Assembly (NCBI GenBank): GCA_900114885.1
Contig: FOUN01000004.1
Span: forward strand, 1-64,000
Length of the DNA stretch: 64,000 bases
Reading direction: 5' to 3'
DNA from: Psychrobacillus psychrodurans
Lineage (GTDB): Bacteria; Bacillota; Bacilli; Bacillales_A; Planococcaceae
Below the pieces are notes generated by a model, which ran no database searches, was not told the DNA's origin, and saw only the letters and a list, made by a program, of their open reading frames with translations. This document shows positions 9,565 through 61,105 of the stretch, piece after piece (position 1 is the first letter of the stretch; the number at the start of each line of letters is the position of its first letter). Made by a program: the position numbers and the translations under genes.

Positions 9565-9690
9565 TTTACTTGCTTCCACTTGTTATTTACTTGCTCTCCA
9601 TTCTGGTTTACTTGCACTAATGGTTAAAATACTTGCTCTCTAACTTCTAATACTTGCTCATGAGTAGCATATACTTGCTAAACGGATAAA
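9565..9690. repeat. 21-bp periodic array 1 (core TTTACTTGCTC)
   Basis: The core ACTTGC begins at 9568, 9589, 9610, 9631, 9652 and 9673: six copies at exactly 21-bp steps. About eleven bases (TTTACTTGCTC, with AAT or TAT in later copies) are conserved and about ten vary freely between units. It lies between convergent genes (the RocR-like gene and yugI). Translations of both strands meet stop codons, so it is not coding. Confidence 0.85.
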
Positions 9691-9708
9691 TTCCCCAATT
9701 ATCTAAAA

Positions 9709-9755
9709 GCAAAAAAGGGTTTATACAGTGTTTTCATCACTGTATAAACCCTTTT
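9709..9755 (-). terminator. Intrinsic terminator after yugI
   Basis: An 18-bp perfect stem (9713-9730 with 9738-9755), loop TTTTCAT. On the minus strand it is followed by the U-rich complement of the A-run at 9711-9716; the yugI stop codon overlaps the stem. Confidence 0.9.
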
Positions 9756-10128
9756 ATAGTGCCGATTTTTTAATCCAGTCGGCTAATTTTTCTTTCAATG
9801 TATTAAATCCTTCCTCATCATGTTCATCTACGCGATCTTGAAGTGATTTCCGAGGTCTATCATCACGTTTTGGTAGTGTTGGCTTTTCTTGAAGTACTCG
9901 CATTGATAAGCTAATTTTCCCTGCTTCATCGTCAATTTCTAGAATTTTCACCTCTACCTCTTGCCCTACAGTTAAAAATTCTTCCACTTCTTTTACATAC
10001 CCGTATGTTATTTCTGAAATATGCACTAGGCCTTGTGTTTGCTCATCTAAACTAACAAAGGCTCCGTATGGCTGAATCCCTGTAACTTTACCCGTGACAA
10101 CATCTCCTACCTTATAATTTTGAGTCAT
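9754..10128 (-). CDS. yugI: S1 RNA-binding domain protein, general stress protein 13 type (YugI)
   Basis: 124 residues, close to YugI (about 130). Residues 4-75 form a complete S1/OB-fold domain: VGDVVTGKVTGIQPYGAFVSL, GLVHISEI, KILEIDDEAGKISLSMR. The C-terminal tail is charged. S1-domain proteins of this type bind RNA and associate with ribosomes; GSP13 is stress-induced in B. subtilis. It is monocistronic, with its own terminator. Assignment rests on domain, size and the neighbouring yugJ and yugE genes. Confidence 0.88.
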   Translation of the reverse strand: MTQNYKVGDVVTGKVTGIQPYGAFVSLDEQTQGLVHISEITYGYVKEVEEFLTVGQEVEVKILEIDDEAGKISLSMRVLQEKPTLPKRDDRPRKSLQDRVDEHDEEGFNTLKEKLADWIKKSAL

Positions 10129-10203
10129 AATTTCGTTCCTACTTTCTTATATACGTTATAGTCATGTTAAATTATAACATAGTAGGAAGTATAACGGCAA
10201 AAA

Positions 10204-12330
10204 TCACTGTATAGGCATAAAGGGCGGTCGCCATCCATTTTCCGTTTGAATGAGTTGAAAGCTTATAATTGGATTATCATCCGACTTACGTGGATCTGGA
10301 TGTTTGGTTAATGTTACTACCCCGTAACCTTCCGATAACAAAGCAAATTTTATCTCTGTAAATTCAAGCCTAATATCGACTATATTTTGATGTTCTCCAC
10401 TCATGTATTCATCTTTAGGAATTTGAAGCCGTGTATCATCTTTAATATACAGTTCATACTGCGTGTCGTAATCCTTTAACTGTGCAGAGTAATAAAATAA
10501 TCCAACCACCTCTTCAGGTGTAGCTTCTTTTAAAATTGCTTGATCATACGTTTTAGCAAATGCCTTATATAGAGCATGCACACGTTGGACAAATTCATCG
10601 TCCACTAAAGTCCCTTTACTAATAGAATCCTCTACTCCTTGAATTCTCCAAATGTCATCACTGTCTAAACGAAGAACTAAGTCATAGCTCACTTGATCTC
10701 CTTTTTCTTGCCCTATATAGGTCGTTAAATATTTATTATTCTGAATTAAATAGTCTTTATTAAAGTAAAGATTTTTAGAACTTTCTCTAATAATATTCTG
10801 TAGAGTTGGATTCTCTATGAAATCTTGTTTACTATTCTCACTTTTAAATGTACTACTCATTAATTCCCACATTACTTCATGGTTATTTTCACTATCAGCA
10901 TAATGGTATATAAGAGTGATATCCATAGGTCCAACACCATGGAGTACAGAAAAATCAAAGTTCTCATTAAATCTTTCATATAGATCAAGTAGTCTATTCG
11001 AAGCTTCGTTGGATTCTAAACTCATCTCTTCTCCGTCTGGTAATAATGCAAACCAATCTAATTTGGTTGTTTCAAGCGCATCTTCTAAAGCCATATAGTA
11101 ATAATCTCTCAGTTGCTCTATGTCTAACAGTTTATACGTTTCGTTGTATTTCCAATTACTTGCATTCATAGAAATGACAACAGGCTTCATCAAAGAAGCA
11201 ATTGGAGATACGCCCGGAATATTTACTAACGATTCCCATGCTATTCGTGTATCCATATTGAGAACATTGTTTTCATTAAACATTTCGTTTATATCGGAAG
11301 GAAAAAGAATCATTTCTGCAAGATCAAAATAGTAATTTTCAAAACGTGCATGCATAACTGAATCTTCAGTGGAATTTAATAGAGTGAATTCTATTTCCGC
11401 CAAATAGTATCCTAGAACTGAAAAGTCTTGTTCATCTAGTAAATTAACTATTCCATAACCTGGAATTGAACTATATAGAGATAAATAGCGCGATTCATTT
11501 TCATCTAATACTGTGAAAAGATCTCTTGTGAACATGGCCCAATCAGGTACAATTTGAAATGCTGTTCCTTCTTTATTAACTGCCAATTTTAACCCTTGCT
11601 TCGGTAATACCTCAATCATATTTTGTATTTCTTCAGGCATATTATATCGATTTGCAATCAAAACATGCTCACTTAGCCTACCGTCGTGCTCCGCTATTTT
11701 GATATCTGCTCCTTGTTCATAGAGCAGATATTCATAGAAATTAATGAGGTGCTCTGTTTTAGCTATAAAATCGCCAATAAAACTAATACTTTGAACTGCA
11801 TTGAGTTTTCCTTTACTAATGGTATCTTCAACCATTTCAGATGGTAGCTTTAGCCCCTCCAAAGCATTTTTATATCCCTCTTTTATAGGTATGTTATCAT
11901 TTTTCCCTTCCAAAGTTCCAGGACTTATTTGTGCGGAGAAAATACTGTCTGCATATTGAACAAATTCGATGCTAGCAAACTCAACTTCATCCATTTGAAG
12001 CATTTGCTGACGTTTTAACCGTTCTTCTTTATATTTTTTTTCCAAATTCTTAATATCATCTTCACTATTTTCTTGATCACTTGTTGTAACATCATTAGAA
12101 TCATTTAGAAAAGTCGTTCCCAATATCCCAATGACAAACACACTAGCTATGCTTACTGCCCACACAGTAATTCGTTGCCATTTGGATCCTTTACTTTTCT
12201 TTTCAACTGGAGCTATATTATTTTCATTTTCTATTTTCTGTAGAATTTCATCAGTATCTAAAGATGAAGGTAATCGATCATAGGATGATTTTAAAAGATT
12301 TAGGCGTTCTTCTAATTGTTTATCGTCCAT
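10204..12330 (-). CDS. Large membrane-anchored probable anti-sigma factor
   Basis: 708 residues from the second ATG, since GGAGGAG falls six bases before it and inside the alternative start at 12345. About 55 cytoplasmic residues, one transmembrane helix (about 53-75), a charged coiled-coil-like stretch, then about 600 extracellular residues without recognisable enzyme motifs. The start overlaps the end of an ECF sigma gene by 11 bases, the classic sigma/anti-sigma arrangement, so the short cytoplasmic segment probably binds the sigma factor and the outer part senses an envelope signal. No HxxxCxxC zinc anti-sigma motif is present, and the extracellular part is far larger than usual. I do not recognise a named homologue; function is inferred from context. 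Confidence 0.7.
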   Translation of the reverse strand: MDDKQLEERLNLLKSSYDRLPSSLDTDEILQKIENENNIAPVEKKSKGSKWQRITVWAVSIASVFVIGILGTTFLNDSNDVTTSDQENSEDDIKNLEKKYKEERLKRQQMLQMDEVEFASIEFVQYADSIFSAQISPGTLEGKNDNIPIKEGYKNALEGLKLPSEMVEDTISKGKLNAVQSISFIGDFIAKTEHLINFYEYLLYEQGADIKIAEHDGRLSEHVLIANRYNMPEEIQNMIEVLPKQGLKLAVNKEGTAFQIVPDWAMFTRDLFTVLDENESRYLSLYSSIPGYGIVNLLDEQDFSVLGYYLAEIEFTLLNSTEDSVMHARFENYYFDLAEMILFPSDINEMFNENNVLNMDTRIAWESLVNIPGVSPIASLMKPVVISMNASNWKYNETYKLLDIEQLRDYYYMALEDALETTKLDWFALLPDGEEMSLESNEASNRLLDLYERFNENFDFSVLHGVGPMDITLIYHYADSENNHEVMWELMSSTFKSENSKQDFIENPTLQNIIRESSKNLYFNKDYLIQNNKYLTTYIGQEKGDQVSYDLVLRLDSDDIWRIQGVEDSISKGTLVDDEFVQRVHALYKAFAKTYDQAILKEATPEEVVGLFYYSAQLKDYDTQYELYIKDDTRLQIPKDEYMSGEHQNIVDIRLEFTEIKFALLSEGYGVVTLTKHPDPRKSDDNPIISFQLIQTENGWRPPFMPIQ

Positions 12331-12877
12331 GTCTAACTCCTCCATTCAATTGTAATGCTGATTTTAATAATGCCTTAGCTCTCAATTGACGTATTTTTAT
12401 CGTCGATAGGGGTACATTTAATACTTCTGCAATTTGTTCATAGGATAATTCATGAAAGTAAAACATAATGATAGGATGACGATATTTTTCATCGAGTGAT
12501 TGAATGGCTTTATGGAGTTCGCGGTCTTCTTCAAATACTAAAACTCGATCTTCTGCGGATTTTGACATATAAGTTTCTCTGATTCCTGTATTTAGCTTAT
12601 GACTCTTTTCTTTTTCCTTTGTTTCTTTTCTGTAATAATCTCTAGCTGTGTTTAATGTGATTTTGTATAACCACGTGGTAAACCGATCACGCTGAAATTG
12701 ATGTAGAAATCGGTATAGCTTCACGAAAACTTCTTGAGTTACATCCGGAATGTCATGAACCAGAACGCCACACTGAAATGCAAACTTTTCAACGGTCCTG
12801 TGATGTATATGTATAAGTTCTGTATATGCTGCTTTGTCCCCCTGTTGTGCTCGTTCTATTAACTCAAGCTCTAACAT
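12320..12877 (-). CDS. ECF-type (sigma-70 family) RNA polymerase sigma factor
   Basis: 185 residues. Region 2 (about 10-80) includes DIPDVTQEVFVKLYRFLHQF and FTTWLYKITLNTARDYYRK; region 4 (about 125-175) includes LDEKYRHPIIMFYFHELSYEQIAEVLNVPLSTIKIRQLRAKALL. Region 3 is absent, as in the extracytoplasmic-function class. ATG at 12877 follows AGAGGGAGG. It is co-transcribed and overlaps with a membrane protein that is probably its anti-sigma factor. A perfect ECF-type promoter upstream (12909-12937) indicates autoregulation. It is not clearly SigW, SigV, SigM, SigX or SigY by eye. Confidence 0.93.
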   Translation of the reverse strand: MLELELIERAQQGDKAAYTELIHIHHRTVEKFAFQCGVLVHDIPDVTQEVFVKLYRFLHQFQRDRFTTWLYKITLNTARDYYRKETKEKEKSHKLNTGIRETYMSKSAEDRVLVFEEDRELHKAIQSLDEKYRHPIIMFYFHELSYEQIAEVLNVPLSTIKIRQLRAKALLKSALQLNGGVRHGR

Positions 12878-12908
12878 AATCCTCCCTCTTTCTCTTTACT
12901 CTACTGAT

Positions 12909-12937
12909 GATACGAAAGATTGTTCTAGATTGTTTCA
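12909..12937 (-). promoter_or_regulatory. Autoregulatory ECF sigma promoter
   Basis: Minus strand: TGAAAC (12937-12932), 17-bp spacer, CGTATC (12914-12909), followed 31 bp later by the sigma gene start. TGAAAC-N16/17-CGTA is the typical Bacillus ECF promoter. Confidence 0.8.
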
Positions 12938-13005
12938 CAAATCAGTTTACATTTTCTATAAATCCTCGTGTACAATAAGACAGTCCTATTAAAGGAGGAA
13001 TTATC

Positions 13006-14343
13006 GTGACAAACCGAGATCATTTTGGATCTAAAATTGGATTTATATTAGCGGCAGCCGGAAGTGCAATTGGACTAGGTGCGATTTGGAAATTTCCATA
13101 TATGGCGGGTACAAATGGAGGTAGTGTATTCGTAATTTTGTTTATTCTATGTACCTTTCTTATTGGTCTACCTATATTGCTTGCTGAATTTGTAATTGGA
13201 AGAAAAGGCCAAGCAGATGCTGTTAGTGGCTTTAAAAAACTGGCACCTGGAAAACCTTGGTTTTTGATCGGTTGGGCAGGTTTTGCATTTTCTTTTATCA
13301 TATTATCATTCTATAGTGTTGTTGGTGGTTGGATCTTATCTTATTTGTTCCGCTCTGTTACATTTAGTTTAAATGGGAATAATGAAACATTCTTTAATGA
13401 CTTGTTTAATACAGTTATCTCAAATCCATGGGAGGTTGTAATTGCTCAGGCCACTTTCATTCTACTCACTATTTGGATTGTAGCGGGTGGGATCAAGGGT
13501 GGAATTGAGAAAGCCAGTAAATGGATGATGCCAATCCTGCTCATTTTCTTTGTTATTTTAGCAATTCGGTCTCTTACTTTAGATGGCGCTATCGAAGGAA
13601 TCAAGTTTTTATTCGTACCAGATTGGTCATACTTCACATGGGAAACTGCTTTACTTGCTTTAGGTCAGGCTTTCTTCTCTTTAAGTGTTGGTGTTTCTGG
13701 AATGATTACTTATGCATCTTATTTACCGAAAGAAACTAAACTGGCATCGTCGGCAATGAGTGTATCTGTCTTGAATATCGGAATATCTATTATGGCAGGG
13801 CTTGTTATTTTTCCGGCAGTGTTTGCATTAGGCTTTTCCCCCGACGCAGGACCTGGCTTAGCATTTATAATAATTCCAGCAGTATTCGAGCAGATTATTT
13901 TTGGTCAATATTTCTTAATTTTATTTTTCATATTACTTTTATTTGCTACACTAACTTCTTCTATCAGCATGTTAGAAATAATTGTATCAATTGGGATCAA
14001 ATCAAAATATGATAGAAGGAAACGAGCAGCCTGGGTATACGGATTCCTCATCTTCTTAGTTGGAATTCCAAGTGCCTTATCTTTTGGTGTACTATCAGAC
14101 GTCGATATCCTAGGTATGTCCATCTTTGACTTCGCTGACTTCCTTACAAGTAGTATTGGATTACCGTTAGGAGCATTATTTATTTCATTATTTGCTGGTT
14201 TCCATTTTTCTAAGTCCATGCTAATCCATGAGCTTAGAATGAATAATTTTTTATTAAATTCTTGGTATATTATTGTACGTTTTGTCGCTCCGCTTGCAAT
14301 AATCATCGTTTTTATTCAAGGTGCTTTGAAGTTATTAATGTAA
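13006..14343 (+). CDS. Sodium-dependent transporter of the NSS (neurotransmitter:sodium symporter) family
   Basis: 445 residues, GTG start after AAAGGAGG. About 11-12 membrane helices. TM1 carries the NSS signature with the unwound GSAIGLGAIWKFPYMAG stretch that holds Na+ and substrate in LeuT; VGVSGMITYASYLPK in TM6 is also typical. Length fits the bacterial 11-12 TM branch (YocR/YhdH type). Likely substrate is an amino acid, unassigned. It diverges from the ECF sigma operon, with 128 bp between them. Confidence 0.92.
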   Translation: MTNRDHFGSKIGFILAAAGSAIGLGAIWKFPYMAGTNGGSVFVILFILCTFLIGLPILLAEFVIGRKGQADAVSGFKKLAPGKPWFLIGWAGFAFSFIILSFYSVVGGWILSYLFRSVTFSLNGNNETFFNDLFNTVISNPWEVVIAQATFILLTIWIVAGGIKGGIEKASKWMMPILLIFFVILAIRSLTLDGAIEGIKFLFVPDWSYFTWETALLALGQAFFSLSVGVSGMITYASYLPKETKLASSAMSVSVLNIGISIMAGLVIFPAVFALGFSPDAGPGLAFIIIPAVFEQIIFGQYFLILFFILLLFATLTSSISMLEIIVSIGIKSKYDRRKRAAWVYGFLIFLVGIPSALSFGVLSDVDILGMSIFDFADFLTSSIGLPLGALFISLFAGFHFSKSMLIHELRMNNFLLNSWYIIVRFVAPLAIIIVFIQGALKLLM

Positions 14344-14433
14344 AAATTGTACTTTTTCTGACAATAATATCAAAAGTTCTACGAAGAATTGTGTTATAAT
14401 ATAATAATAATTAAGACAGGAGTGGATGGAATC

Positions 14434-14646
14434 ATGAAGAAAGATTTACATGAGCAATTACGTCAATTAAGAGAAGAGCGTAACATTACGCTAGAAACTC
14501 TTGCATTAAAAACAAGAATTGGTACTGGAAAGTTAGAAGCCTATGAATCAGGCGCAGAAACTCCATCAGTACAAACAATATTGAAATTGTCGAATGCACT
14601 TGAAGTTCCAGCTTCTAACTTATTAGACGGTCTTCAAGAAGTTTAA
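14434..14646 (+). CDS. Small XRE-family helix-turn-helix DNA-binding protein
   Basis: 70 residues from MKKDLHEQL; an upstream in-frame start at 14389 is unlikely because CAGGAGTGG precedes the chosen ATG. Nearly the whole protein is one Cro/CI-type HTH: LRQLREERNITLETLALKTRIGTGKLEAYESG, then ETPSVQTILKLSNALEVP. No effector domain. It is a stand-alone gene with its own terminator; the target is unknown. Confidence 0.88.
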   Translation: MKKDLHEQLRQLREERNITLETLALKTRIGTGKLEAYESGAETPSVQTILKLSNALEVPASNLLDGLQEV

Positions 14647-14653
14647 TTTATAA

Positions 14654-14687
14654 AAAAAGCTTTCGGTTTAAAAACCGAAAGCTTTTT
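14654..14687. terminator. Bidirectional terminator between the HTH gene and yugE
   Basis: Stem AAAAAGCTTTCGGTTT/AAACCGAAAGCTTTTT with A and T tracts on both sides, between convergent genes. Confidence 0.9.
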
Positions 14688-14691
14688 CGTT

Positions 14692-14952
14692 TTATATAAT
14701 ACATTTCATTTCATACTTTAACGCTATTAGTTTATAAGATATATCCACACATTTTTCTAAAGGAATCCATTCTTCAAAAGAATGTTCATAAATTTCCTGA
14801 ATTCGTTTTGCCAATTCAGATGGGTGATCAATATTTTGCAAATATGCGACTACGTCTGCAGTTTCTGTTTCATAGGCATTTTCTCCAATGTGAAATGGGT
14901 CCCATTGTTGTAATGTCCAAACTGCTCTTCTATTCATCTCAATTGTGTCCAT
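14692..14952 (-). CDS. yugE: DUF1871-family small protein (YugE-like)
   Basis: 86 residues with AAGGTGA before the ATG. The sequence (TLQQWDPFHIGENAYETETADVVAYLQ...) resembles the B. subtilis YugE/DUF1871 proteins, small soluble helical proteins of unknown function. The location beside patB, as in B. subtilis, supports the call. No catalytic motif is visible. Confidence 0.7.
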   Translation of the reverse strand: MDTIEMNRRAVWTLQQWDPFHIGENAYETETADVVAYLQNIDHPSELAKRIQEIYEHSFEEWIPLEKCVDISYKLIALKYEMKCII

Positions 14953-15027
14953 TTATTTTCACCTTACTAGTTTTATTAGATAGGGTTATAATAACATAAT
15001 AAATACAAATTGAAAGGGGAAATTACT

Positions 15028-16194
15028 TTGTCTATTTTTTCTACTGTTTTTAATCGCCGAAATACATATTCAGCCAAATGGGATATGTTAGAGCAAGTAT
15101 ATTCTATCAACGATGCTTCGGAGGTACTACCTATGTGGGTAGCGGATATGGATTTTGCCATCCCATCCGTTATCATTGATGCGCTACATAAACGAATGGA
15201 ACATCCAGTATTTGGTTATTCCATGGCGCCTGAAGAAACAAAATCATCCCTTACTAATTGGGTAGCTGAAAAGCATCAACTTACTATAAAAAATGAATGG
15301 ATTCTGTTTCTTCATGGGGTCATTCCTGGAATAGCAGAAGCTATTGAAGCATTCACTGAAGTTGGGGATAAAGTTCTTATCCATACGCCGGTATATCCTC
15401 CATTTATGAGTGTACCTACAAATTTAGGTAGAAAAGTAGTCACTAGTCAGTTATTAGAAAAGAATAATTCCTACGAGATGGACTGGGAATCATTTGAAGA
15501 CTGTTTAAAAAATGATGTGAAAGCTTTTATCTTATGTAATCCACATAATCCTGGTGGAAAGGTATGGAGCGAAAAAGACTTAACAAAGATAGCTAAACTT
15601 TGTCAACAATATAATGTTTTAATTTTGTCAGATGAAATTCACTCCGATCTTATTTTCGAACCAAATAAGCATATACCAATGCTTAAAGTGGCGGCAGATC
15701 CAAATAACATCATAACTTTTTTAGCACCTACAAAAACATTTAACCTAGCAGGAATTCAAGCTGCTACTATGGTTGTTCCCGATGAGAAAAAACGGAAGGT
15801 TTTAGAAAATCTTGAGATGAACCGTGGATATATGGGATTAAATATATTTTCTCTTACAGCACTCCAAACAGCATACGAACAGGGGAATCCTTGGCTGGAG
15901 GAACTGTTAGAAGTATTGACAGTAAACATGGATTACGTGGTAGAAAACCTCTCGAGATTAGATGGCATAAAGGTTTCCAAACCAGAGGGTACATATTTAC
16001 TTTGGATCGATTATCGTGGGACTGGCCTTTCAGAAAAAGAAATGATGGATCGCCTTTTATCAGTTGGAAAGCTCGCTCTAGAGCCTGGCTCTAAGTACGG
16101 AGAAGCTGGAAATGGATTCTTACGAATGAATGTGGCCTGTCCACTCTCTACTGTGGAAGATGGAGTTTCCCGCTTCGTAAAATCACTGCAATAG
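15028..16194 (+). CDS. patB: PatB/MalY-family C-S lyase (cystathionine beta-lyase)
   Basis: 388 residues starting at the TTG at 15028, nine bases after AAAGGGGAA; the earlier TTG at 15010 overlaps that site. A fold-type I PLP enzyme: MWVADMDFAIP near the N-terminus, CNPHNPGGKVW, LSDEIHSDLIF (Asp to PLP), and APTKTFNLAG with the Schiff-base lysine. These enzymes cleave cystathionine or related thioethers to a thiol, pyruvate and ammonia. Gene order with yugE matches B. subtilis, where kinB follows; here kinB, kapB and kapD are absent. Confidence 0.92.
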   Translation: MSIFSTVFNRRNTYSAKWDMLEQVYSINDASEVLPMWVADMDFAIPSVIIDALHKRMEHPVFGYSMAPEETKSSLTNWVAEKHQLTIKNEWILFLHGVIPGIAEAIEAFTEVGDKVLIHTPVYPPFMSVPTNLGRKVVTSQLLEKNNSYEMDWESFEDCLKNDVKAFILCNPHNPGGKVWSEKDLTKIAKLCQQYNVLILSDEIHSDLIFEPNKHIPMLKVAADPNNIITFLAPTKTFNLAGIQAATMVVPDEKKRKVLENLEMNRGYMGLNIFSLTALQTAYEQGNPWLEELLEVLTVNMDYVVENLSRLDGIKVSKPEGTYLLWIDYRGTGLSEKEMMDRLLSVGKLALEPGSKYGEAGNGFLRMNVACPLSTVEDGVSRFVKSLQ

Positions 16195-16257
16195 ACATAA
16201 TTTGAATAACAATATCTACTTTAAGAAAAGCGTAAGTGCTCTTTAAAAGAATTAAAC

Positions 16258-16380
16258 TTATTTTTTACTGTCTCCGGAGTGCTTCAGACTGGCATTGTTA
16301 CATCTTTTCGGGGGATTTCAAGAGGTTGGTCGTGATGAATACCACGATCAACCTCTCTTTTTTCGGTAATCTTGTGGAGC
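16258..16380 (+). repeat. Dispersed 3'-end repeat copy containing the patB terminator
   Basis: Contains GTTGGTCGTGA (16325-16335) and TTCGGTAATCTT (16362-16373), both shared with copies near 20836 and 30456, plus a diverged upstream part (TGCTTCAGACTGG...TTGTTAC). A strong hairpin, GAGGTTGGTCGTG with CACGATCAACCTC (16322-16354), followed by a T-run, makes it an intrinsic terminator for patB. Confidence 0.75.
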
Positions 16381-16394
16381 TTATCTATTAAAAC

Positions 16395-16436
16395 ACTAAA
16401 AGACCCTTCATCACGAAAAGTCTTTTAGTATTTCTT
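16395..16436 (-). terminator. Terminator of the cyclophilin lipoprotein operon
   Basis: Ten-bp stem ACTAAAAGAC/GTCTTTTAGT (16395-16429) with a T-rich sequence downstream on the minus strand. Confidence 0.65.
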
Positions 16437-16454
16437 TTATCATTATGGAAACTG

Positions 16455-16658
16455 TCATTTAAGTTTATCTTGTTTTGCTTGCATAATTCTTTCTTCTAAA
16501 ACTTTTGCTTTTTCTGCATCTTTTTTAGATTTTTTTAGCAGCCATCTAAAAACGAGTACGCAAATAACCATTAAAACAACTAATTCTATTACTACAGGTA
16601 TATATTCCGATTTATCTTCTGGAAAATATAAAAAAGCTAGATGTAAAAACGAGAACAT
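16455..16658 (-). CDS. Small single-pass membrane protein
   Basis: 67 residues, ATG preceded by GAGGAG. A short polar start, one strong transmembrane helix (about 20-40, IPVVIELVVLMVICVLVFRWLL), then a lysine- and glutamate-rich helical tail that should lie in the cytosol. It begins 16 bp after the cyclophilin lipoprotein gene and shares its terminator, so it is probably co-transcribed. No family recognised. Confidence 0.65.
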   Translation of the reverse strand: MFSFLHLAFLYFPEDKSEYIPVVIELVVLMVICVLVFRWLLKKSKKDAEKAKVLEERIMQAKQDKLK

Positions 16659-16674
16659 ATTTACACTCCTCTAA

Positions 16675-17412
16675 TTATTTCTGAACAACTTCGATTGAAT
16701 CTATAGTAATATCAACTACTGGCTTATCATTTGCATCAGTCTCAACTGCTGCCATCTGGTCAACTATATCTAAACCTTCAATTACTTGCCCAAATACTGT
16801 ATGTTTTTGATCAAGATGAGGCGTGCCACCCATTTTTTCGTATGCTTCAGCAATTTCCTTTGGCCATCCACCATCGATCATTTGCTGTGCTGTTGCAGGT
16901 GGTTCAGAAGCTTGAACGATGAAGAATTGACTACCATTTGTATTTGGTCCTGCGTTTGCCATTGAAAGAGCTCCTCTTAAATTAAAAAGATTCATGGAAA
17001 ACTCATCCTCAAATTCTGCTCCGTAGATACTTTCTCCACCCATACCAGTACCAGTTGGATCTCCACCCTGAATCATGAAATCTTGGATAATTCGGTGAAA
17101 AATCATTCCATCATAATAACCGTTTTCTGCATGTGTTAAGAAATTCTCCACTGTTTTTGGTGCTAGTTCAGGGAATAATTTTATCTTAATTGGTCCCATT
17201 GATGTATTCATTGTTACTAAAGCTTCGTTTGAAGCAATCTCTTTTGAAAGTTGTGGATACATTATTTTCTCTCCTTCTTGTTGGGTATCAGAATTTACAG
17301 TAGAATCCTCTTTTTCTACCTCTTCCTTCTGTGCATTAGAATCATCTGTTCCACACGCACTTAAAAAGCAAATAGTTGTTGCTATACCTATTAGTAATAA
17401 TATTTTTTTCAT
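16675..17412 (-). CDS. Cyclophilin-type peptidyl-prolyl isomerase, lipoprotein
   Basis: 245 residues. An N-terminal lipoprotein signal ends at the lipobox LSAC (Cys20), followed by an acidic linker (about 25-55). From about 60 the cyclophilin domain: [47 protein letters not shown] (catalytic Arg/Phe region), [19 protein letters not shown]. It isomerises prolyl bonds of exported proteins at the outer membrane face. It occupies the place of kinB-kapB-kapD relative to B. subtilis. Confidence 0.93.
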
Positions 17413-17548
17413 GAATTATTCACCCCAAATTAGTTTACCATAACAATACACCATAATTCAGTGACAAAGTATCTAACTTTCTTCGACACACTAAATGTTC
17501 TATAATAGAAATAGAACAGTTACGCTACCATAGAAAGAAGGGATTTCA

Positions 17549-18784: not shown

Positions 18785-18786
18785 AG

Positions 18787-18825
18787 ATAGCACACTTTCA
18801 ATACCGAAAGTGTGCTATTCTTTTT
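18787..18825 (+). terminator. Terminator after the MFS gene
   Basis: Stem ATAGCACACTTTC/GAAAGTGTGCTAT, 6-base loop, then TTCTTTTTAT, three bases past the stop codon. Confidence 0.9.
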
Positions 18826-18974
18826 ATTAGAAAAGAATAATATTCTTTTTACTACTGTCCAGCCCCAGCCCCTAGACCATTGGATGGCTTCCAACTTGTG
18901 GTGTCCCTTAATCCAGGACAAACTTAGGTGCTTGCGCTTTTCTTATAAGATTATTGGAATTGGAGTGCAAGTTT

Positions 18975-20828: not shown

Positions 20829-20835
20829 GAAAAAC

Positions 20836-22175: not shown

Positions 22176-22178
22176 AAC

Positions 22179-34063: not shown

Positions 34064-34280
34064 AATCAATTAGTGGAGTACTACACTAATTGATTGTAGA
34101 GAAAGGTGGATACTCCAGCAGGATAAGTGAGACAGGATGAAAAATCCCAAACGAACGCGGAGCGTCGGTGGTGGTTCATCGCTAACCCTGCAGAGGCCAC
34201 AGGATGTTGGTCACGAAGGCGTTGTCACATGACGTAGCGCACTTAGCCTTTGTACTCCACCTATAACGGAAATCAGTCGT
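34064..34280. repeat. Degenerate palindromic repeat region
   Basis: Begins with a perfect 12-bp inverted repeat (AATCAATTAGTG at 34064 with CACTAATTGATT at 34084). A GC-rich block follows with GGTGGATACTCCAGCAGGATAAGTGAGAC, GAACGCGGAGCG and TATAACGGAAATCAG. This order (CTCC..GGA..AGTGAGAC ... CGGAAATCA) resembles a decayed, opposite-orientation relative of the repeat at 21100-21215. No gene is present in 33802-34419. Confidence 0.55.
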
Positions 34281-42348: not shown

Positions 42349-42432
42349 TGAAAAGCCTCCTAATAGTTGCTCAGTTGATATATACTCCTATTCTATAGTA
42401 CCATAATTCTATGGTAGGAAGGAGTGTCACTA

Positions 42433-42699
42433 GTGGAACGATTTTATTTGTACGATGATGTAGAGGATACCAAAACACGATTTGTAGGTTTTACAGGGGA
42501 ATCCCAAAGATATGATTTAGCTATTTCCCAAAGCTCTCGTTTTTTTGGAAAAGTACTTGTGATGGATATACAATATGGACGGGCAGCTATAATCGGTCCC
42601 GATGATGTGGACGAACCAGGCTATCTGGAGCATGTATTTAATAGATCAGAAGAAGAAGCGCTGGAATTAAGAGATTATTTACGCGAGTTATTAAGTTAA
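42433..42699 (+). CDS. DUF3055-family small protein
   Basis: 88 residues from the GTG at 42433, six bases after AAGGAGTG. Sequence begins with MERFYLYDDVEDTKTRFVGF and contains ISQSSRFFGKVLVMDIQYGRAAII. Soluble, acidic; a conserved Bacillales family of unknown function. Confidence 0.8.
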   Translation: MERFYLYDDVEDTKTRFVGFTGESQRYDLAISQSSRFFGKVLVMDIQYGRAAIIGPDDVDEPGYLEHVFNRSEEEALELRDYLRELLS

Positions 42700-42743: not shown

Positions 42744-42888
42744 TAGCCCTAAAAAACTCCAAAACAGCCCTTAAACTATGTCTTAGCTTGTAATTATCAG
42801 CTGATAGCCCATAAACTTACTATATTGGCCCTTAAGCCTCGTGCTATAGCCCATAAATGTGAGAGAAGCGCCCATACATCAAACATCT
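42744..42888. repeat. 21-bp periodic array 2 (core TAGCCCATAAA)
   Basis: GCCC begins at 42746, 42767, (degenerate GCTT at 42786), 42807, 42828, 42849 and 42870: steps of 21 bp except one slipped unit of 19. Core TAGCCC[AT]TAAA about 11 bp, the next 10 bp variable. Lies between convergent genes. Stops in all relevant frames argue against coding. Confidence 0.85.
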
Positions 42889-42900
42889 TCCAACAACAAA

Positions 42901-42940
42901 AAAACCTTAAGCAGATCATAATTGATCTTGCTCAAGGTTT
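42901..42940 (-). terminator. yutD terminator
   Basis: Imperfect stem pairing AAAACCTT..GC..GATC with GATC..GC..AAGGTTTT, overlapping the last codons of yutD, with a long T-run on the minus strand. Confidence 0.75.
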
Positions 42941-43257
42941 TCGTTTACTTCTTTTATAGTTTCTACAGGAACTACTTTCGGGGCTACTCCTATTTTCTTC
43001 ACGACAAAATAGGCACAGCCAAAGTTACAGTATTCATATAAATAATCTTTCATCGTCCCTATTTTCGTATCAAATGTAGCTTTGTGACTACGATCCTCAA
43101 AAAAACCTTTAAGACGAAGCTGACCATAACCCCAATCGCCCATAATATAATCGTATTTAGTTAAGATTTCACTGTAACGATCTAAAAAGGCTTCTTCTTT
43201 AAATGCCTCACGAAAATCTTCTATAATTTCATAAGTAAAGCCTTCTGCAACTATCAT
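42916..43257 (-). CDS. yutD: DUF1027-family protein YutD
   Basis: 113 residues; YDYIMGDWGYGQLRLKGFFEDR and YLYEYCNFGCAYFVVKK are typical of YutD. Conserved in Bacilli, function unknown. Fifteen bases after lipA in the same direction, so probably co-transcribed with it. Confidence 0.9.
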   Translation of the reverse strand: MIVAEGFTYEIIEDFREAFKEEAFLDRYSEILTKYDYIMGDWGYGQLRLKGFFEDRSHKATFDTKIGTMKDYLYEYCNFGCAYFVVKKIGVAPKVVPVETIKEVNENLEQDQL

Positions 43258-45954: not shown

Positions 45955-46145
45955 TATACTCTGTAGCTCCCCATTTATACAAGTGTATAAATGACAGTGT
46001 TATTTTTGTTCAAAATAACCCCAACTAGATTTGTCTCGACGATCAGCATCTAATTTCGGCATAACTTCCTTCCGTTTACAATCACAGTTGTCATTCTCCT
46101 GTAAACTACTCTTAAGTCATGCGGCCTCTACCTATTCTTATTCAT
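45955..46145 (-). promoter_or_regulatory. Lysine riboswitch (L-box) aptamer
   Basis: Minus-strand RNA shows the L-box landmarks in order: AGGTAGAGGCCGC, TTAAGAGTA, GGAAGGAAGTTATGCCGAA, GTTGGGGTTATTTT, ACTGTCAT and a closing GGGGAGCTACAGAG. These match the conserved aptamer core. A TATACT -10-like element lies at 46158-46153. High lysine should favour the terminator at 45893-45930. Confidence 0.88.
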
Positions 46146-51518: not shown

Positions 51519-51530
51519 TTTTTTTTGTTA

Positions 51531-51556
51531 AACCAGTCAAATGACTGGTTTTTTTG
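51531..51556 (+). terminator. Terminator after the monooxygenase gene
   Basis: AACCAGTCA/TGACTGGTT stem followed by seven T residues. Confidence 0.85.
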
Positions 51557-51567
51557 TGTTATTCATC

Positions 51568-52332: not shown

Positions 52333-52476
52333 TTTCAATTTTCCTTTCTGTATAGAACTATACAAGTTGTCTTATTTTTAAAGTACCACTTATAAAACTA
52401 TTTCAAACTAATTTTACTAAGTATGGACATTTTTTACCTAGTCCTATCCTATCTCAGTTAAAACAAACAAATAAAA

Positions 52477-52513
52477 AAATACAGCAAGGTGAATTGTACA
52501 CCTTGCTGTATTT
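52477..52513 (-). terminator. suf operon terminator
   Basis: AAATACAGCAAGGTG/CACCTTGCTGTATTT stem with a T-run on the minus strand, 12 bp after sufB. Confidence 0.9.
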
Positions 52514-52524
52514 ATATAAATGGA

Positions 52525-53922
52525 TTAACCGATAGAGCCTTCCATCTCGAACTTGATAAGACGGTTCATTTCTACAGCATACTCCATTGGAAGTTCTTTT
52601 GTAAATGGTTCGATGAAGCCCATTACGATCATTTCTGTTGCTTCTTCTTCGCTAAGACCACGACTCATCAAGTAGAATAATTGTTCTTCAGATACTTTAG
52701 AAACTTTCGCTTCATGCTCTAAAGAAATATTATCGTTCAAGATTTCGTTGTAAGGAATTGTATCAGAAGTAGACTGATTATCCATGATCAATGTATCACA
52801 TTCGATGTTTGCTCGAGCACCAGTAGCTTTACGTCCAAAATGAACGATACCACGGTATGTTACCTTACCGCCTTGTTTCGAAATAGATTTAGAAACAATA
52901 GTGGATGAAGTATTCGGAGCTAAGTGCATCATTTTCGCACCAGCATCTTGATGTTGACCTTTACCAGCAATAGCGATAGAAAGAGTCATACCACGAGCGC
53001 CTTCACCTTTTAGGATAACTGCTGGATATTTCATCGTTAATTTTGATCCGATATTTCCATCAATCCATTCCATCGTTGCATTTGCATCACAAACTGCACG
53101 TTTAGTAACTAAGTTATAAACGTTGTTTGCCCAGTTTTGGATTGTTGTATAACGGCAATAAGCATCTTTTTTAATGATAATTTCAACAACCGCACTATGA
53201 AGTGAGTTTGTTGTGTAAACAGGAGCAGTACATCCTTCAACATAATGTACAGAAGCGCCTTCGTCTACAATAATTAACGTACGTTCGAATTGACCCATAT
53301 TTTCAGAGTTAATTCGGAAGTATGCTTGTAGTGGTGTTTCCACTTTAACACCTGGTGGTACATAGATAAATGATCCACCCGACCATACTGCTGAGTTAAG
53401 TGCAGAAAACTTGTTGTCTGATGAAGGAATTACTGTACCCCAATGCTTTTTGAAAATATCTTCATTTTCACGAAGTGCAGAATCAGTATCTTTAAATACA
53501 ATCCCTAAATCTTGAAGCTCTTGCTTCATATTGTGGTATACAACTTCTGATTCATACTGTGCAGAAACACCTGCAAGATATTTTTGTTCCGCTTCTGGAA
53601 TACCTAATTTATCAAATGTAGCTTTGATTTCATCTGGCACTTCATCCCATGAAGTTTCTGTTTGTTCTGAAGGCTTAACATAATAAGTAATTTCATCAAA
53701 GTTTAATGACCCTAAATCTCCACCCCATTGAGGCATAGGTTTTGAGTAAAAAATTTCTAAAGCTTTTAAGCGATAATCTAGCATCCATTGTGGTTCTGAT
53801 TTCATACGTGATATTTCTTCCACGATTTCTTTCGTTAATCCACGTTTAGAACGGAAAATGGATACGTCTTTATCGTGGAAACCATATTTATAATCACCAA
53901 TTTCAGGCATTTTTTTAGCCAT
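52525..53922 (-). CDS. sufB: Fe-S cluster assembly protein SufB
   Basis: 465 residues, ATG after GGAGG. A SufB/D fold with [21 protein letters not shown] and [22 protein letters not shown]. Forms the SufBC2D scaffold in the cytosol. Last gene of the five-gene leftward operon sufCDSUB, the gene order typical of Bacillales. Confidence 0.97.
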
Positions 53923-53943
53923 CGTATTTCCTCCGTTCGTCTG

Positions 53944-56907
<2,964 letters not shown>

Positions 56908-56925
56908 GCTGATTCGTCCCCTTTC

Positions 56926-57705
56926 TTATGCTTCTTGTCCAACTGTTTCGTCTTCAATTCCTAACTCTTCTTTTACCCATTCGTATCCTTCTGCTTCTAA
57001 TCTTTGAGCAAGTTCAGGACCACCGGATTTAACTACACGTCCTTGCATCATTACATGTACATGGTCTGGCGTGATGTAGTTAAGAAGACGTTGATAGTGA
57101 GTGATTACTAAGCTTCCGAATCCTTCTCCACGCATTTCGTTGATACCTTTAGAAACAACTTTTAATGCATCAATATCAAGACCAGAGTCAATTTCATCTA
57201 AAATAGCAAATTTAGGTTGCAACATCATTAATTGAAGAATCTCATTACGTTTTTTCTCCCCGCCTGAGAATCCTTCATTTAAATAACGTTGTGCCATATC
57301 TAAATCCATTTCTAAAAATTCCATTTTGCTATCAAGCTCGCGAATGAATTTCATTAAAGAGATTTCATCGCCTTCTTCGCGACGTGAATTAATCGCTGAA
57401 CGTAGGAAATCAGCATTTGTAACTCCAGTAATTTCACTTGGATATTGCATCGCCAGGAATAGACCAGCTTGAGCACGTTCGTCTACTTCCATTGCTAAAA
57501 CATCTTCTCCGTCCAATTCAATTGAACCAGATGTAACTTCATATTTTGGATGACCCATAATAGCAGAAGCTAAAGTAGATTTACCTGTACCATTAGGACC
57601 CATTACTGCGTGAATTTCGTTCGTATTAATTGTTAAATTAACACCTTTTAAAATCTCTTTACCGTCTATTTCAACGTGTAAATCTTTAATAACTAAAGTC
57701 GACAT
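56926..57705 (-). CDS. sufC: Fe-S assembly ATPase SufC
   Basis: 259 residues. ABC-ATPase: Walker [11 protein letters not shown], signature GFSGGEKKR, Walker [17 protein letters not shown]-loop VITHY. Soluble ATPase of the SufBCD complex, first gene of the operon; preceded by GGAGG. Confidence 0.97.
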
Positions 57706-57750
57706 TTAATAACCTCCATTAAGTAAATATGAATGTATAACCATTCTAAT

Positions 57751-57765
57751 TTATTATCATTCTAA
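57751..57765 (-). promoter_or_regulatory. Fur/PerR-box-like palindrome at the suf promoter
   Basis: Minus strand TTAGAATGATAATAA matches 12 of 14 fixed positions of the 7-1-7 box TTATAATNATTATAA. It directly adjoins the -10 element. AT-rich context makes chance matches possible. Confidence 0.35.
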
Positions 57766-57793
57766 TCTTAACCCAAACTGAAGTACCTTGCAA
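57765..57793 (-). promoter_or_regulatory. Putative sigma-A promoter of sufCDSUB
   Basis: TTGCAA (57793-57788), 17-bp spacer, TAAGAT (57770-57765), 60 bp before sufC. Confidence 0.55.
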
Positions 57794-57954
57794 ATCTTTT
57801 GGAGCATATTCTATTTAATATTGTAGAATATACAGATTTCCTGTTTTCTCTTGACTTTACAACGAAATTATTAGGTAAATAGTAATCTTTCTTTATTTTC
57901 ATTAAGAATAGTCTAAATGAGAATCGATTTCACTATGAAGCTAGTGAAAACAAA

Positions 57955-57987
57955 AAGAATCCACGAAGAAATTCTCCGTGGACTCTT
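57955..57987 (-). terminator. Terminator of the small gene at 57993
   Basis: GTCCACGGAGAATT with TTCTTCGTGGAT on the minus strand, then TCTTTTTGTTTTC. Confidence 0.75.
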
Positions 57988-57992
57988 GTATA

Positions 57993-58184
57993 TTATCCCC
58001 TAAATGCTTGGGCATCAAGTTTAGCCGCTAATTGCATACATTTTTCATGATCCTCTTGCCGTTTGTTTTCAACTTGCAATCTTAGTTCTTGACTTTGTCT
58101 CAATTCATCATATCCAAAACCATGTACTCCTCTAAATGCGTGGTCCATCTGTTCTGTATAAGGTAAGTCTTCCGAACTGATAAT
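57993..58184 (-). CDS. Small hypothetical protein with apparent ATT start
   Basis: 63 codons open from ATT at 58184 to TAA; reads SSEDLPYTEQMDHAFRGV then a charged helix (YDELRQSQELRLQVENKRQEDHEKCMQLAAKL). The frame has no ATG, GTG or TTG before an internal ATG at codon 12, and an in-frame TGA lies two codons before the ATT. GAGAGGG sits seven bases before the ATT, at normal spacing, and a terminator follows the stop, both arguing for a real gene. Alternatives: start at the internal ATG without a visible site, or a damaged start. No family recognised. Confidence 0.5.
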   Translation of the reverse strand: MISSEDLPYTEQMDHAFRGVHGFGYDELRQSQELRLQVENKRQEDHEKCMQLAAKLDAQAFRG

Positions 58185-58261
58185 GAATCATCCCTCTCTG
58201 TTTTTAAGTTCATCATTTATATACCCAACTATTTGGGTCTTAAACATATTTCTTTAATAAC

Positions 58262-59419
58262 TTATGCAGTTTTTGAAAATTTGTCTACGATAATCGCAAG
58301 TGCTCCATCACCAGTTACATTTGTCGCCGTTCCAAAGCTGTCCTGTGCAATGTATAGTGCAATCATCAATCCAATCATTGCCCCGTTGAATCCAAGCATT
58401 GTTTCCAATAATCCCAGTGCCGCCATAACTGCTCCACCTGGAACTCCAGGAGCTGCAATCATCGTTACACCAAGCATAAATATAAAAGGTGCAAATGAAG
58501 ATAGCATAATATCCTGTCCATTTATAAGCAATACACCGATTGAACAAGAGACAAGTGTAATCGTGCTACCTGACAAGTGGATTGTTGCAAATAGAGGAAT
58601 CGTAAAGTTTGTCACTTTAGCTGAAGCACCAGTTTGTTGTGCCTGCTTTAGAGTCACCGGAATTGTTGCAGCTGATGACTGTGTACCTAAAGCTGTAAAA
58701 TAAGCTGGGGACATTGTTTTTAAGAGTTTCAAAGGGTTTTTCCCAGTTACCGTACCAGCTGCTGTATATTGTAATAAAAGCATGACAAGATGCAGCGCAA
58801 TAATCATGACAAACACGACTCCAAAAACCGATAAAACCTTAGCCACTTGTCCACCGTACGCCATATTCATAAAGATTCCAAAAATATGTATCGGTAATAA
58901 TGGGATAATTACATAAGAGATTACCTTCTCAATAATCTCGCTAAACTCTTCAAATGCATTTTGTAACATGTTTCCTTTTAGTTTGGAAATCCCAATCCCC
59001 ATAATGAATGAGAAAACTAATGCTGTCATTATATCCATCATCGGAGGTATCGGCATTTCAAATAAGCCCCCAATTAAAAATTCTTCCGGATTCTCTAACT
59101 TAACACTCTCTTTACCACCTATAAGCTTAGGCAGTAAATTTGATGCGACAAAAAATGCTATCAAGCCTGCTACAATGGTAGATAAATAGGCAATTCCCGT
59201 AGAAATACCAAGTAATCTACCAGAACCCTTTCCAAGCTTAGCTATCCCTGGAACAATAAACCCAATAATAATGAAAGGAACAATAAACCCTAAAAAGGCA
59301 CTAAAAATACTATTAAAAGTAGCCATTATCTCTACCACTATTTTAGGGACAACTAGTCCCAATAAAACACCAAATACTATCGCTATCACTATTCGCGGCA
59401 ATAACCCAAACCTCTTCAT
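58262..59419 (-). CDS. Dicarboxylate/amino acid:cation (Na+ or H+) symporter, DAACS family
   Basis: 385 residues with about eight helices and two re-entrant loops. GLT-type features: TLKQAQQTGASAKVTNFTIPL, STITLVSCSIGVL and the C-terminal GGAVMAALG and IAQDSFGTATNVTGDGALAIIVDKF, which hold the Na+/substrate sites. Imports C4-dicarboxylates, glutamate or serine-like substrates; not resolved. ATG after GAGGAGG. Not part of the syntenic yun-suf-met backbone, so probably an insertion. Confidence 0.9.
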   Translation of the reverse strand: MKRFGLLPRIVIAIVFGVLLGLVVPKIVVEIMATFNSIFSAFLGFIVPFIIIGFIVPGIAKLGKGSGRLLGISTGIAYLSTIVAGLIAFFVASNLLPKLIGGKESVKLENPEEFLIGGLFEMPIPPMMDIMTALVFSFIMGIGISKLKGNMLQNAFEEFSEIIEKVISYVIIPLLPIHIFGIFMNMAYGGQVAKVLSVFGVVFVMIIALHLVMLLLQYTAAGTVTGKNPLKLLKTMSPAYFTALGTQSSAATIPVTLKQAQQTGASAKVTNFTIPLFATIHLSGSTITLVSCSIGVLLINGQDIMLSSFAPFIFMLGVTMIAAPGVPGGAVMAALGLLETMLGFNGAMIGLMIALYIAQDSFGTATNVTGDGALAIIVDKFSKTA

Positions 59420-59524
59420 AAGATGTCCTCCTCATATGCACAAATGTATTATTAATAACATTTATACACTTTAGCACAGTCACTTATTAAAGTGAATAGG
59501 ATTAGTAGTATACATAATATTCTA

Positions 59525-60484
59525 TTAACATTTTTTTGAACTGTAGTTCGTGTAGTAAGTATTAGAGCCTTTTCCGTATTTTACTAAGTCAGAGCTTGAT
59601 AGGATTCTTTTTGCTTCATACCTGTTGTTTAAAAGTAGAAACTCTCTACATTCTTTATTAGTAATAGTTTCTTTACAGAGCGAAAAATAAGTGGAAACTG
59701 CTTTTTTGTGTGCATATGAATTGTTTTCTTTACAAGTAGGACAATACCAAGTTCGGGCTATTTTCTGCATTCCAATAAATCCGCAGCTTTCACATTTTAC
59801 TCCGAGCTTTAAATCTTTAAGTGAAATTGAGAAATATTCGATAAGAGGAATGGATGGAGGCGAATAGGTACTTCTTAGAATTACTTCTTTTATTTTCTCC
59901 ATTTCTTTTTGACTTAAGGTTGAACTATTTTCGGGGAAATGTCGTAGGTAGGAACGCATTTCATTCCTATACATTATTTTAACGCCGCTGACTGAATGTT
60001 TAACAAAACTATTACGAGACGCAAAGATTACTACACCATGAATTGGGACTGAAATATTATACTGGAGGAAGAACTGAGAAAGTTGATATTTATATTCATT
60101 CAACTGATTTGCGGGGCAAGGATATTTAGTTATTCTTCCATCCTCTTTTCGTTGGATAAGTTGTGATGGATTAGTCGAAAACTCTAATTCCCCAATGATG
60201 TTTTTTACTTCAAGAATTACTACTCCATATGGGGTTATTATCAGGAAGTCTAATTCAAATGCAAATTCCGCAAAGAGAAACACCTTGTGAAAAATATAAC
60301 ATCTATATGGAATTTTCATTTGCTCTAGCACTTTGTAAATAACCTCTTCACCATAATCTCCTGCTTTAATAGCACCTATCTCTTTAGAAATTCTTGTATA
60401 TTGTGGATGTTGCGGAGAAAGTCTTTCTATTAAATCAGACATTCTTGCTACATATTTTGAAGGGGAATACGGTTTAATTATCAA
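59525..60484 (-). CDS. NERD-domain (nuclease-related) protein with zinc-ribbon
   Basis: 319 residues. NERD domain (about 30-160): GAIKAGDYGEEVIYKVL, ELDFLIITPYGVVILEVKNIIGELEF, with the D...ExK nuclease-like core. Near residue 230 a zinc ribbon: CESCGFIG...WYCPTCKEN. NERD proteins are presumed DNA- or RNA-processing; several lie in accessory or defence-type loci. Flanked on its 5' side by the GC-rich array at 60660-61105. Substrate unknown. Confidence 0.85.
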   Translation of the reverse strand: MIIKPYSPSKYVARMSDLIERLSPQHPQYTRISKEIGAIKAGDYGEEVIYKVLEQMKIPYRCYIFHKVFLFAEFAFELDFLIITPYGVVILEVKNIIGELEFSTNPSQLIQRKEDGRITKYPCPANQLNEYKYQLSQFFLQYNISVPIHGVVIFASRNSFVKHSVSGVKIMYRNEMRSYLRHFPENSSTLSQKEMEKIKEVILRSTYSPPSIPLIEYFSISLKDLKLGVKCESCGFIGMQKIARTWYCPTCKENNSYAHKKAVSTYFSLCKETITNKECREFLLLNNRYEAKRILSSSDLVKYGKGSNTYYTNYSSKKC

Positions 60485-60659
60485 ATTATCATCACCTCTT
60501 CAACACAATATCACGAATAGTTAGTCTTTTCTAGACTAAATTTTTTTATTGTGCAGATTGGTGAATAAAGAATGCTTGAAAAGCGGTATTGACTCTTTTT
60601 AGTGCTCAGTTTCTGCTGGACGGATACCAGACTGGCTCCAGCACTTTGACTACTCGATC

Positions 60660-61105
60660 GGGCGATTGCGACTTCTTCTCGGGCGTTCGTCCTACCCCGG
60701 GCGGATAGCAGGTTGGTTCGGGCGCTTAAAATAGTCGAGCGGGCGGTTGCGACTTCCTCTTGGGCGTTCGTCCTACCCCCGGGCGGATAGCAGGTTGGCT
60801 TGGGCGCTTAGAATACTCGAACGGGCGGTTGCGACTTCCTCTCAGGCGTTCGTCCTACCCCCGGGCGGATAGCAGGTTGGTTCGGGCGCTTAAAATAGTC
60901 GAGCGGGCGGTTGCGACTTCCTCTCGGGCGTTCGTCCTCCCCCCGGGCGGATAGCAGGTTGGCCTGGGCACTTAGAATACTCGAACGGGCGGTTGCGACT
61001 TCCTCTCAGGCGTTCGTCCTCCCCCCGGGCGGATAGCAGGTTGGTTCGGGCGCTTAAAGTAGTCGAGCGGGCGGTTGCGACTTCCTTTTGGGCTTTCGCC
61101 ATTCG
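60660..61105. repeat. GC-rich 21-bp periodic array 3 (core GGGCG) with 82-bp higher-order repeat
   Basis: GGGCG (rarely AGGCG or GGGCA) begins at 60660, 60681, 60699, 60720, 60741, 60762, 60781, 60802, 60823, 60844, 60863, 60884, 60905, 60926, 60945, 60966, 60987, 61008, 61027, 61048, 61069, with GGGC at 61090. Steps are 21-21-21-19 (first 18), an 82-bp unit. Every other unit alternates AAATAGTCGAGC and GAATACTCGAAC, giving a 164-bp repeat. 82 is not a multiple of three, so it is not coding. A diverged flank begins near 60612. No gene lies between 60485 and 61158. Confidence 0.95.

Follow-up and report, generated by a model that had tools for sequence, protein, structure and literature searches.

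Intergenic repeat arrays with a 21-bp pitch and changing core words in Psychrobacillus and other Bacillales

Several known classes of bacterial repeat share one feature or another with the arrays described here, which are runs of short direct repeats lying mostly 21 bp apart between genes. Three of them occur in the first 64 kb of a contig of Psychrobacillus psychrodurans (FOUN01000004.1), the stretch referred to below as the window. Plasmid iterons are direct repeats about 20–22 bp apart, bound on one face of the helix at a single replication origin. The arrays have a similar pitch of about 21 bp, but an array core recurs at tens of chromosomal loci, whereas iterons occur at one origin. Clustered regularly interspaced short palindromic repeat (CRISPR) arrays likewise combine a constant repeat and a variable spacer at a fixed pitch. 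Their repeat and spacer, however, each measure about 20 bp or more, and an entire array unit of 20–21 bp is too short. Repetitive extragenic palindromic units and bacterial interspersed mosaic elements (REP/BIME), which bind gyrase, are also high-copy intergenic repeats whose sequence varies between bacteria. In the published passages that describe them, REP units are palindromes of 20–40 bp, whereas the arrays are non-palindromic direct repeats at a 21-bp pitch; the array words TTTACTTGC, TTTATGGGCTAT and CTATACGAGAG are not palindromes. The arrays differ from variable number tandem repeat minisatellites in that the whole unit is not conserved between neighbours, being conserved solely inside higher-order duplications.

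The closest described repeats found in the open-licence PubMed Central (PMC) literature, as far as the passages on them extend, are the Staphylococcus STAR elements. These have one 14-bp core, T(G/A/T)TGTTG(G/T)GGCCC(C/A), with a truncated form TGTTGNGGCCC, and spacers of 40–44 bp at the described locus; their function is given as unknown (PMC3532100). Like the arrays, they are intergenic direct repeats found at many loci in varying number, combining a short conserved core with spacers that differ between loci and are less well conserved, but the passages describing them contain neither a 21-bp pitch nor replacement of the core (PMC3532100). Two of the three STAR features tested are missing from the arrays. 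The full or truncated core has no occurrence on either strand of 85 loci from the window's own genome (1,642,518 bases), nor has the truncated core any in 21 array regions. STAR cores stand about 40 bp or more apart in those passages, while 299 of 331 neighbouring pairs of the core TACTTGC are 21 bp apart start to start. The third feature is shared: the arrays, too, are direct repeats lying between genes at many loci, each locus having spacers of its own.

The first-pass annotation of the window had named no described system that matches the arrays, and this holds for the open-licence PMC literature, to the extent of the passages available in it. To our knowledge, and within that literature, no described class of bacterial repeats is defined by its pitch while its cores are interchangeable. 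It is an evenly balanced proposition that the arrays are binding sites for a sequence-specific DNA protein, spaced along the helix at a two-turn (21-bp) pitch in the gaps between genes. Tentatively, they may also represent an element class defined by geometry, that is, 21-bp-phased arrays in which the core word is replaced at fixed places as a putative DNA-binding protein shifts its specificity.

The 21-bp period in the window and the genome

The window opens contig C44 of a draft genome (G000; 4.02 Mb in 47 contigs), whose lipoyl synthase is 98% identical to its counterparts in P. psychrotolerans and P. antarcticus. Its three arrays are as follows.

9567..9678, + strand: array 1, six TACTTGC-type cores with a period of exactly 21, TTTACTTGC family
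42746..42877, - strand: array 2, TAGCCCATAAA on the + strand and TTTATGGGCTA on the - strand, steps of 21 and 19
60651..61098, + strand: array 3, CGGGCG-type cores with an 82-bp higher-order unit

Array 1 consists of six [TA]ACTTGC cores at 9567, 9588, 9609, 9630, 9651 and 9672, separated by five 21-bp steps. The cores of array 2 lie at 42746, 42767, 42807, 42828, 42849 and 42870, with one degraded core after the second, giving steps of 21, 40 (19 + 21), 21, 21 and 21. When matches at lags 21, 42 and 63 were scored against 2000 dinucleotide shuffles per intergenic region, array 1 reached 59 (shuffle mean 0.7, maximum 7) and array 2 reached 15 (mean 0.5, maximum 7). Array 3 has GGGC cores from 60660 to 61090, with steps mostly of 21; roughly one step in each 82-bp unit is of 18–19 (or 40). 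This mixture of steps of 21 and 19 keeps the strict score of array 3 from rising above chance (2, with 1.5 in shuffles). Its signal sits at 82 bp (110 matches), and Tandem Repeats Finder reports a period of 82 with 5.5 copies and one of 164 with 2.8 copies. The period of 21 bp that the first-pass annotation ascribed to all three arrays is thus borne out for arrays 1 and 2, while array 3 carries it in a form that the strict score does not detect.

The same period extends well beyond the window. A first autocorrelation sample comprised the window and 20 further stretches (252 intergenic regions, with that of array 3 dropped from the tandem group), and its six-mer matches at lag 21 numbered 53 against 1.8 in shuffles at convergent junctions, 90 against 11.8 at tandem junctions and 3 against 2.4 at divergent ones. 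A larger sample excluded the window and consisted of 51 stretches not selected for arrays (1,014,399 bases; 528 intergenic regions, of which 320 were tandem, 97 convergent and 111 divergent). Here the autocorrelation peak is sharp and lies exactly at 21 bp, and lag-21 matches exceed the shuffle mean at all three junction types (tandem, 363 vs 24.0; convergent, 54 vs 6.9; divergent, 65 vs 7.8). The impression from the first sample that divergent junctions are empty of arrays was overturned by this last figure.

A strict chain was defined as one 7-mer occurring three or more times at period P±1, counted per intergenic region. Across the 56 periods from 10 to 65 in the larger sample, 11 regions were found at each of 20, 21 and 22, 8–10 at 41–43, 1–2 at 62–64 and one at 51–53; the remaining 44 periods yielded none. 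Two of the 11 flagged regions, of which one had been called divergent and the other convergent, are halves of a single tandem region (L232) split by a spurious open reading frame (ORF), which leaves 10. A strict array is thus present in about 2% of intergenic regions. The genome-wide peak proposed in the first-pass annotation, and with it a genome-wide family of phased intergenic arrays that group by core, therefore exists, and the three window cores recur at other loci.

The pitch can be read most directly from the most abundant core. Among 331 distinct exact TACTTGC neighbours at most 24 bp apart, the distance is 21 bp in 299, 20 in 25, 19 in five, and 22 and 24 in one each; pairs that skip one unit lie 42 bp (36 pairs) or 41 bp (six) apart, and none lies at 43. 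In a set of 419 distinct units, within which TACTTGC is fixed by definition, the T before the core carries 1.06 bits and the two positions after it 0.70 bits each, while most spacer offsets carry 0.02–0.19 bits. Single TACTTGC words are neither avoided nor enriched in coding DNA (154 vs 161.2 expected), and avoidance of single cores there was rejected; it is therefore the array, rather than the word, that seems to matter.

Core words between species and genera

The window arrays represent three core families: TTTACTTGC (array 1), TTTATGGGCTAT (array 2) and CGGGCG (array 3). For the first of these, the pattern TACTTGC-N0-30-TACTTGC has 342 matches in G000 against one for the reversed control. 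Among 19 Psychrobacillus genomes, such pairs number 125 in G004, 67 in G007 and 64 in G008, and 1–6 in the 15 others. TACGAGA pairs number 125 in G004, 73 in G007, 29 in G008, 10 in G005 and four in G000. TATGGGC pairs, the family of array 2, are minor in G000 (10) and richer in G005 (36), with 16 each in G012 and G018, while CGGGCG pairs, counted in 12 Psychrobacillus genomes, number 45 in G007, 36 in G004, 19 in G000, six each in G002 and G005, and 0–3 in the rest. The prevailing core word therefore differs between species. A further word of the window's own genome, CTAGCGATTC, forms the core of an array of 17–19 units (L247:17365-18043).

Different words can occupy one place. Downstream of the MetQ-like gene beside array 3 (the metQ locus), eight of 12 Psychrobacillus genomes have an array past the same terminator, built from four to five words, some of them close variants (partly by eye). 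The arrays are of CGGGCG type in G000, G004 and G007. In G005, where gene order is that of the window, there are eight units of TTTATGGGCTAT, and the words read partly by eye are TTTAGGAGCG in G011, TTTACGAGCG in G006, TTTAGGRGCG in G001 and GTTGCG in G009. G008 has one lone TTTATGGGCTA there, and G002, G003 and G010 have no array. The array-2 locus has the same core in G005 and G007, although with unlike spacers, as well as two units in G004 and one in G008; G011 and G006 show other words (by eye), and six of 13 genomes show no array, the left gene not being found in G009 and G012. The array-1 locus holds an array in G000 alone among the 11 genomes, G000 included, in which both flanks were found (by eye). 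At C8:359500, a TACTTGC array in G000 faces a CTATACGAGAG array in G004 (L013 vs L164).

Where the word is retained, its rate of change can be compared with that of its surroundings. From 32 array clusters in G000, 18 orthologous pairs were obtained in stretches of G004, G007 and G008; 13 were used, two being omitted since the partner had no TACTTGC array and three because they fell under the alignment score. Mismatches amount to 35/527 (6.6%) in cores, 74/384 (19.3%) in spacers (offsets 11–17) and 126/726 (17.4%) in flanking DNA, the difference between core and spacer having a Fisher p of 1.2e-8. A simulated neutral core passed through the same filter gives a mismatch of 0.157–0.187. Thus, spacers drift at the rate of the flanks, while cores change about three times more slowly. 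Indels of unit size do not dominate the alignment gaps, which are commonest at 1 bp (39), with three of 21 and one of 42.

Arrays also occur in other genera. Among 1101 intergenic regions from 80 lipoyl-synthase loci, 13 carry a strict chain at P = 20, 12 at 21, 10 at 22, 3–8 at 40–43 and 0–3 at any other period between 12 and 45. The arrays lie in 11 of the 80 loci, belonging to Psychrobacillus, Viridibacillus, Paenisporosarcina, Lysinibacillus, Sporosarcina (three), Bacillus (two), Neobacillus and Ureibacillus. Their cores are mostly different, and more than a dozen further cores occur across other Bacillales. Bacillus sp. FJAT-29814 and Neobacillus niacini have two arrays in common at the same places. 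No array was found in 118 intergenic regions from 12 stretches that belong to other families of the class, and no strict chain in four systematic loci of G008 (34 regions) or in nine of G003 and G012 (97 regions); G003 has a short array under a laxer score.

Some of these cores resemble one another in layout. Array entries were scored for a consensus in 23 of 27 cases (array 3 and those of G029, G003 and G006 were dropped, their chains being too short), and TTTA-N3-GC is exact in six of the 23 consensuses, against a shuffled mean of 0.12 and a maximum of 2 in 2000, a post hoc count since the layout was noticed on part of the scored set; four of the six come from one genus. At five or more of six letters the count is 10/23, against 2.2 and a maximum of 9 in shuffles. 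A fairer test is provided by 121 genomes of the family, in which pairs of TTTANNNGC at spacings of 20–21 bp only were counted: 2628 were found, compared with 664 of the reversed pattern, a total to which the genus behind the initial observation of the layout contributes. In 29 of the 121 genomes, spanning 11 of 19 genera, the matches number 20 or more and are at least threefold the control, and the opposite holds in none; outside the window's own genus the enrichment is seen in 22 of 109 genomes. The cores had first been called unrelated in sequence. Several, however, share TTTA-N3-GC with a changing middle, and the supposedly unrelated words are thus in part variants of one layout, while many cores, that of array 3 included, do not fit it.

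Position and neighbours

Of 73 TACTTGC arrays, 66 lie within called intergenic regions; the seven outside are at stretch ends or within ORFs placed over arrays by a simple gene caller. The loci of G000 used for placement were partly selected for arrays and contain 870 intergenic regions (547 tandem, 148 convergent, 175 divergent). Thirty-five of these hold TACTTGC arrays, 22 at tandem, 10 at convergent and three at divergent junctions, with the L232 artefact contributing one of the 10 and one of the three. Arrays thus lean away from divergent junctions, without this being a rule. A special tie to convergent junctions, as first suggested, is not supported: most array regions are tandem, divergent junctions are under-represented rather than empty, and array 3 itself lies between two minus-strand genes.

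Relative to the leading strand, the motif is opposite in 44 cases and along it in 21, orthologues being included so that the cases are not independent. At least one of six frames is open in 24 of 34 arrays, as is often so in short stretches. The idea that the period reflects seven codons, which the first-pass annotation had itself argued against, is disfavoured by steps of 19 and 20 and by the lack of an evident three-base rhythm of mismatches, but the open frames do not exclude coding. In another genus, a TACTTGC-type array (L142:7767-8291) yields heptad-like ORFs of 72 aa, which are probably spurious.

The surroundings of the window arrays are as follows.

8172..9506, + strand: sigma-54 activator-like gene, left of array 1 (Pfam)
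9672..9699, + strand: end of array 1 in the motif direction, the last core followed by AAACGGATAAATTCCCC, a version of the end signature GRAACGGATAATTWTTCC
9710..9755, no strand: bidirectional terminator-like hairpin beside array 1 (limits by eye; terminator scan)
9754..10128, - strand: S1-domain protein gene, right of array 1 (Pfam)
42424..42699, + strand: SAV0927-like gene, left of array 2 (Pfam)
42895..42945, - strand: terminator-like hairpin of the YutD-like gene, beside array 2 (by eye)
42916..43257, - strand: YutD-like gene, right of array 2 (Pfam)
59525..60484, - strand: NERD-domain gene, left of array 3 (Pfam)
61112..61145, - strand: terminator-like hairpin of the NlpA/MetQ-like gene, beside array 3 (by eye; counterparts in relatives)
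61159..61971, - strand: NlpA lipoprotein (MetQ-like) gene, with array 3 beyond its 3' end (Pfam)

The flanking genes in the window are ordinary by Pfam, and those beside nine other arrays look ordinary by eye. NERD-domain genes adjoin two large arrays of different genera (59525-60484 in the window and L141:8367-9323), which could be coincidence. Rfam RNAs in the window comprise a Bacillaceae-1 RNA (34196-34262, -), a lysine riboswitch (45956-46138, -), a SAM riboswitch cut by the window edge (63924-64000, -) and the 5' part of a 16S rRNA gene (1-96, -). Elsewhere in G000, arrays look dense at C8:240000-390000, with higher-order units of about 186, 226 and 237 bp among the matches listed. At L041:9581-11760, TACTTGC arrays and copies of a GC-richer element of about 150 bp occur in alternation, and this locus has no Rfam match. 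Intergenic regions of relatives also hold GC-rich, repeated-looking elements (by eye).

Possible origins and significance

The exact helical register, the constrained cores and indifferent spacers, the presence of one word at many loci and the swapping of that word fit an array of protein-read sites. A sequence-specific, oligomeric protein would read cores lined up along the helix every two turns; its specificity would change between lineages, with old arrays decaying and new ones forming. The bound array would then be architectural, serving as a nucleoid or topological boundary or preventing read-through from one unit to the next. This role, as architecture or boundary, is favoured because the arrays occupy the gaps between genes and show no evident link to any gene type. 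Landing sites for a DNA protein, one of the roles first suggested, remain the best reading, with the protein itself putative.

Several observations weigh against it. A second frequent step of 19 (18–19) bp, seen in arrays 2 and 3 and in the CTATACGAGAG family, does not fit strict two-turn phasing; in array 3 and the CTATACGAGAG family it recurs in the pattern 21,21,21,19 or 21,21,19. A terminator stands between gene and array at 26 of 37 gene ends, little above the 22.3 given by random placement, and terminator placement was rejected as a distinguishing feature. Arrays are absent from several species where others have one, and therefore no single array is essential. Higher-order duplications, of 82 bp in array 3 and of about 186, 226 and 237 bp elsewhere (among the matches listed), are likewise not predicted by this reading and show that plain tandem amplification also acts, and homogenisation of cores could mimic part of their slower change.

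The same duplications, together with expansion of orthologous arrays between species (20 vs 1 pair, 28 vs 10 pairs) and the presence or absence of whole arrays, would be expected of satellite-like neutral or selfish repeats, in which slippage and unequal recombination make, homogenise and spread 21-bp arrays without host function. This origin is possible but unlikely, given that units with unlike spacers still stand exactly 21 bp apart in 299 of 331 pairs and that cores change more slowly than spacers, which follow the flank rate; slippage also gives no reason for a pitch of 20–21 bp across genera. That the arrays are mobile or recombination-made cassettes, inserted or flipped by a core-recognising enzyme, is improbable. 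Blocks often end, in the motif direction, in GRAACGGATAATTWTTCC (by eye, among the blocks listed of 118 array blocks), and one array is inverted relative to its flanks in G004 (L171:11377-11488 vs L168 near 6329), both of which would suit such an enzyme. However, no transposase or recombinase was recognised among the few neighbouring genes viewed (by eye and Pfam, no systematic search having been made), and viral contigs are at chance, with 11 stretches at spacing 21 and 11 at the control spacing of 24, on which ground viral spread was rejected.

Action at the RNA level, as elements of 3' untranslated regions that engage an RNA-binding protein or termination, is the least probable of these origins. 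It would accord with the 32 of 35 TACTTGC regions that are tandem or convergent, and hence at the 3' end of at least one gene, and with the two-to-one bias in orientation, but orientation is nonetheless mixed (44 to 21), so that DNA fits better than RNA. The terminator count given above, with the terminator preceding the array, also speaks against RNA elements, as does the absence of any Rfam match at gathering score on the arrays of the window and six further G000 loci.

If the arrays are indeed sites read by a DNA-binding protein, a class of repeats that retains its pitch and location but renews its sequence would imply a DNA-binding system that is widespread in Bacillales and has gone unseen. 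The arrays could serve directly as baits, with controls built in as a scrambled core, a shifted spacing and the core of a neighbouring species. They offer a direct way of studying how the DNA between transcription units is organised, and a case in which rapid co-evolution of a DNA-binding protein and its repeats could be tested in bacteria. An element class defined by geometry would, if true, be the bacterial counterpart of fast-evolving satellite DNA and the proteins that bind it.

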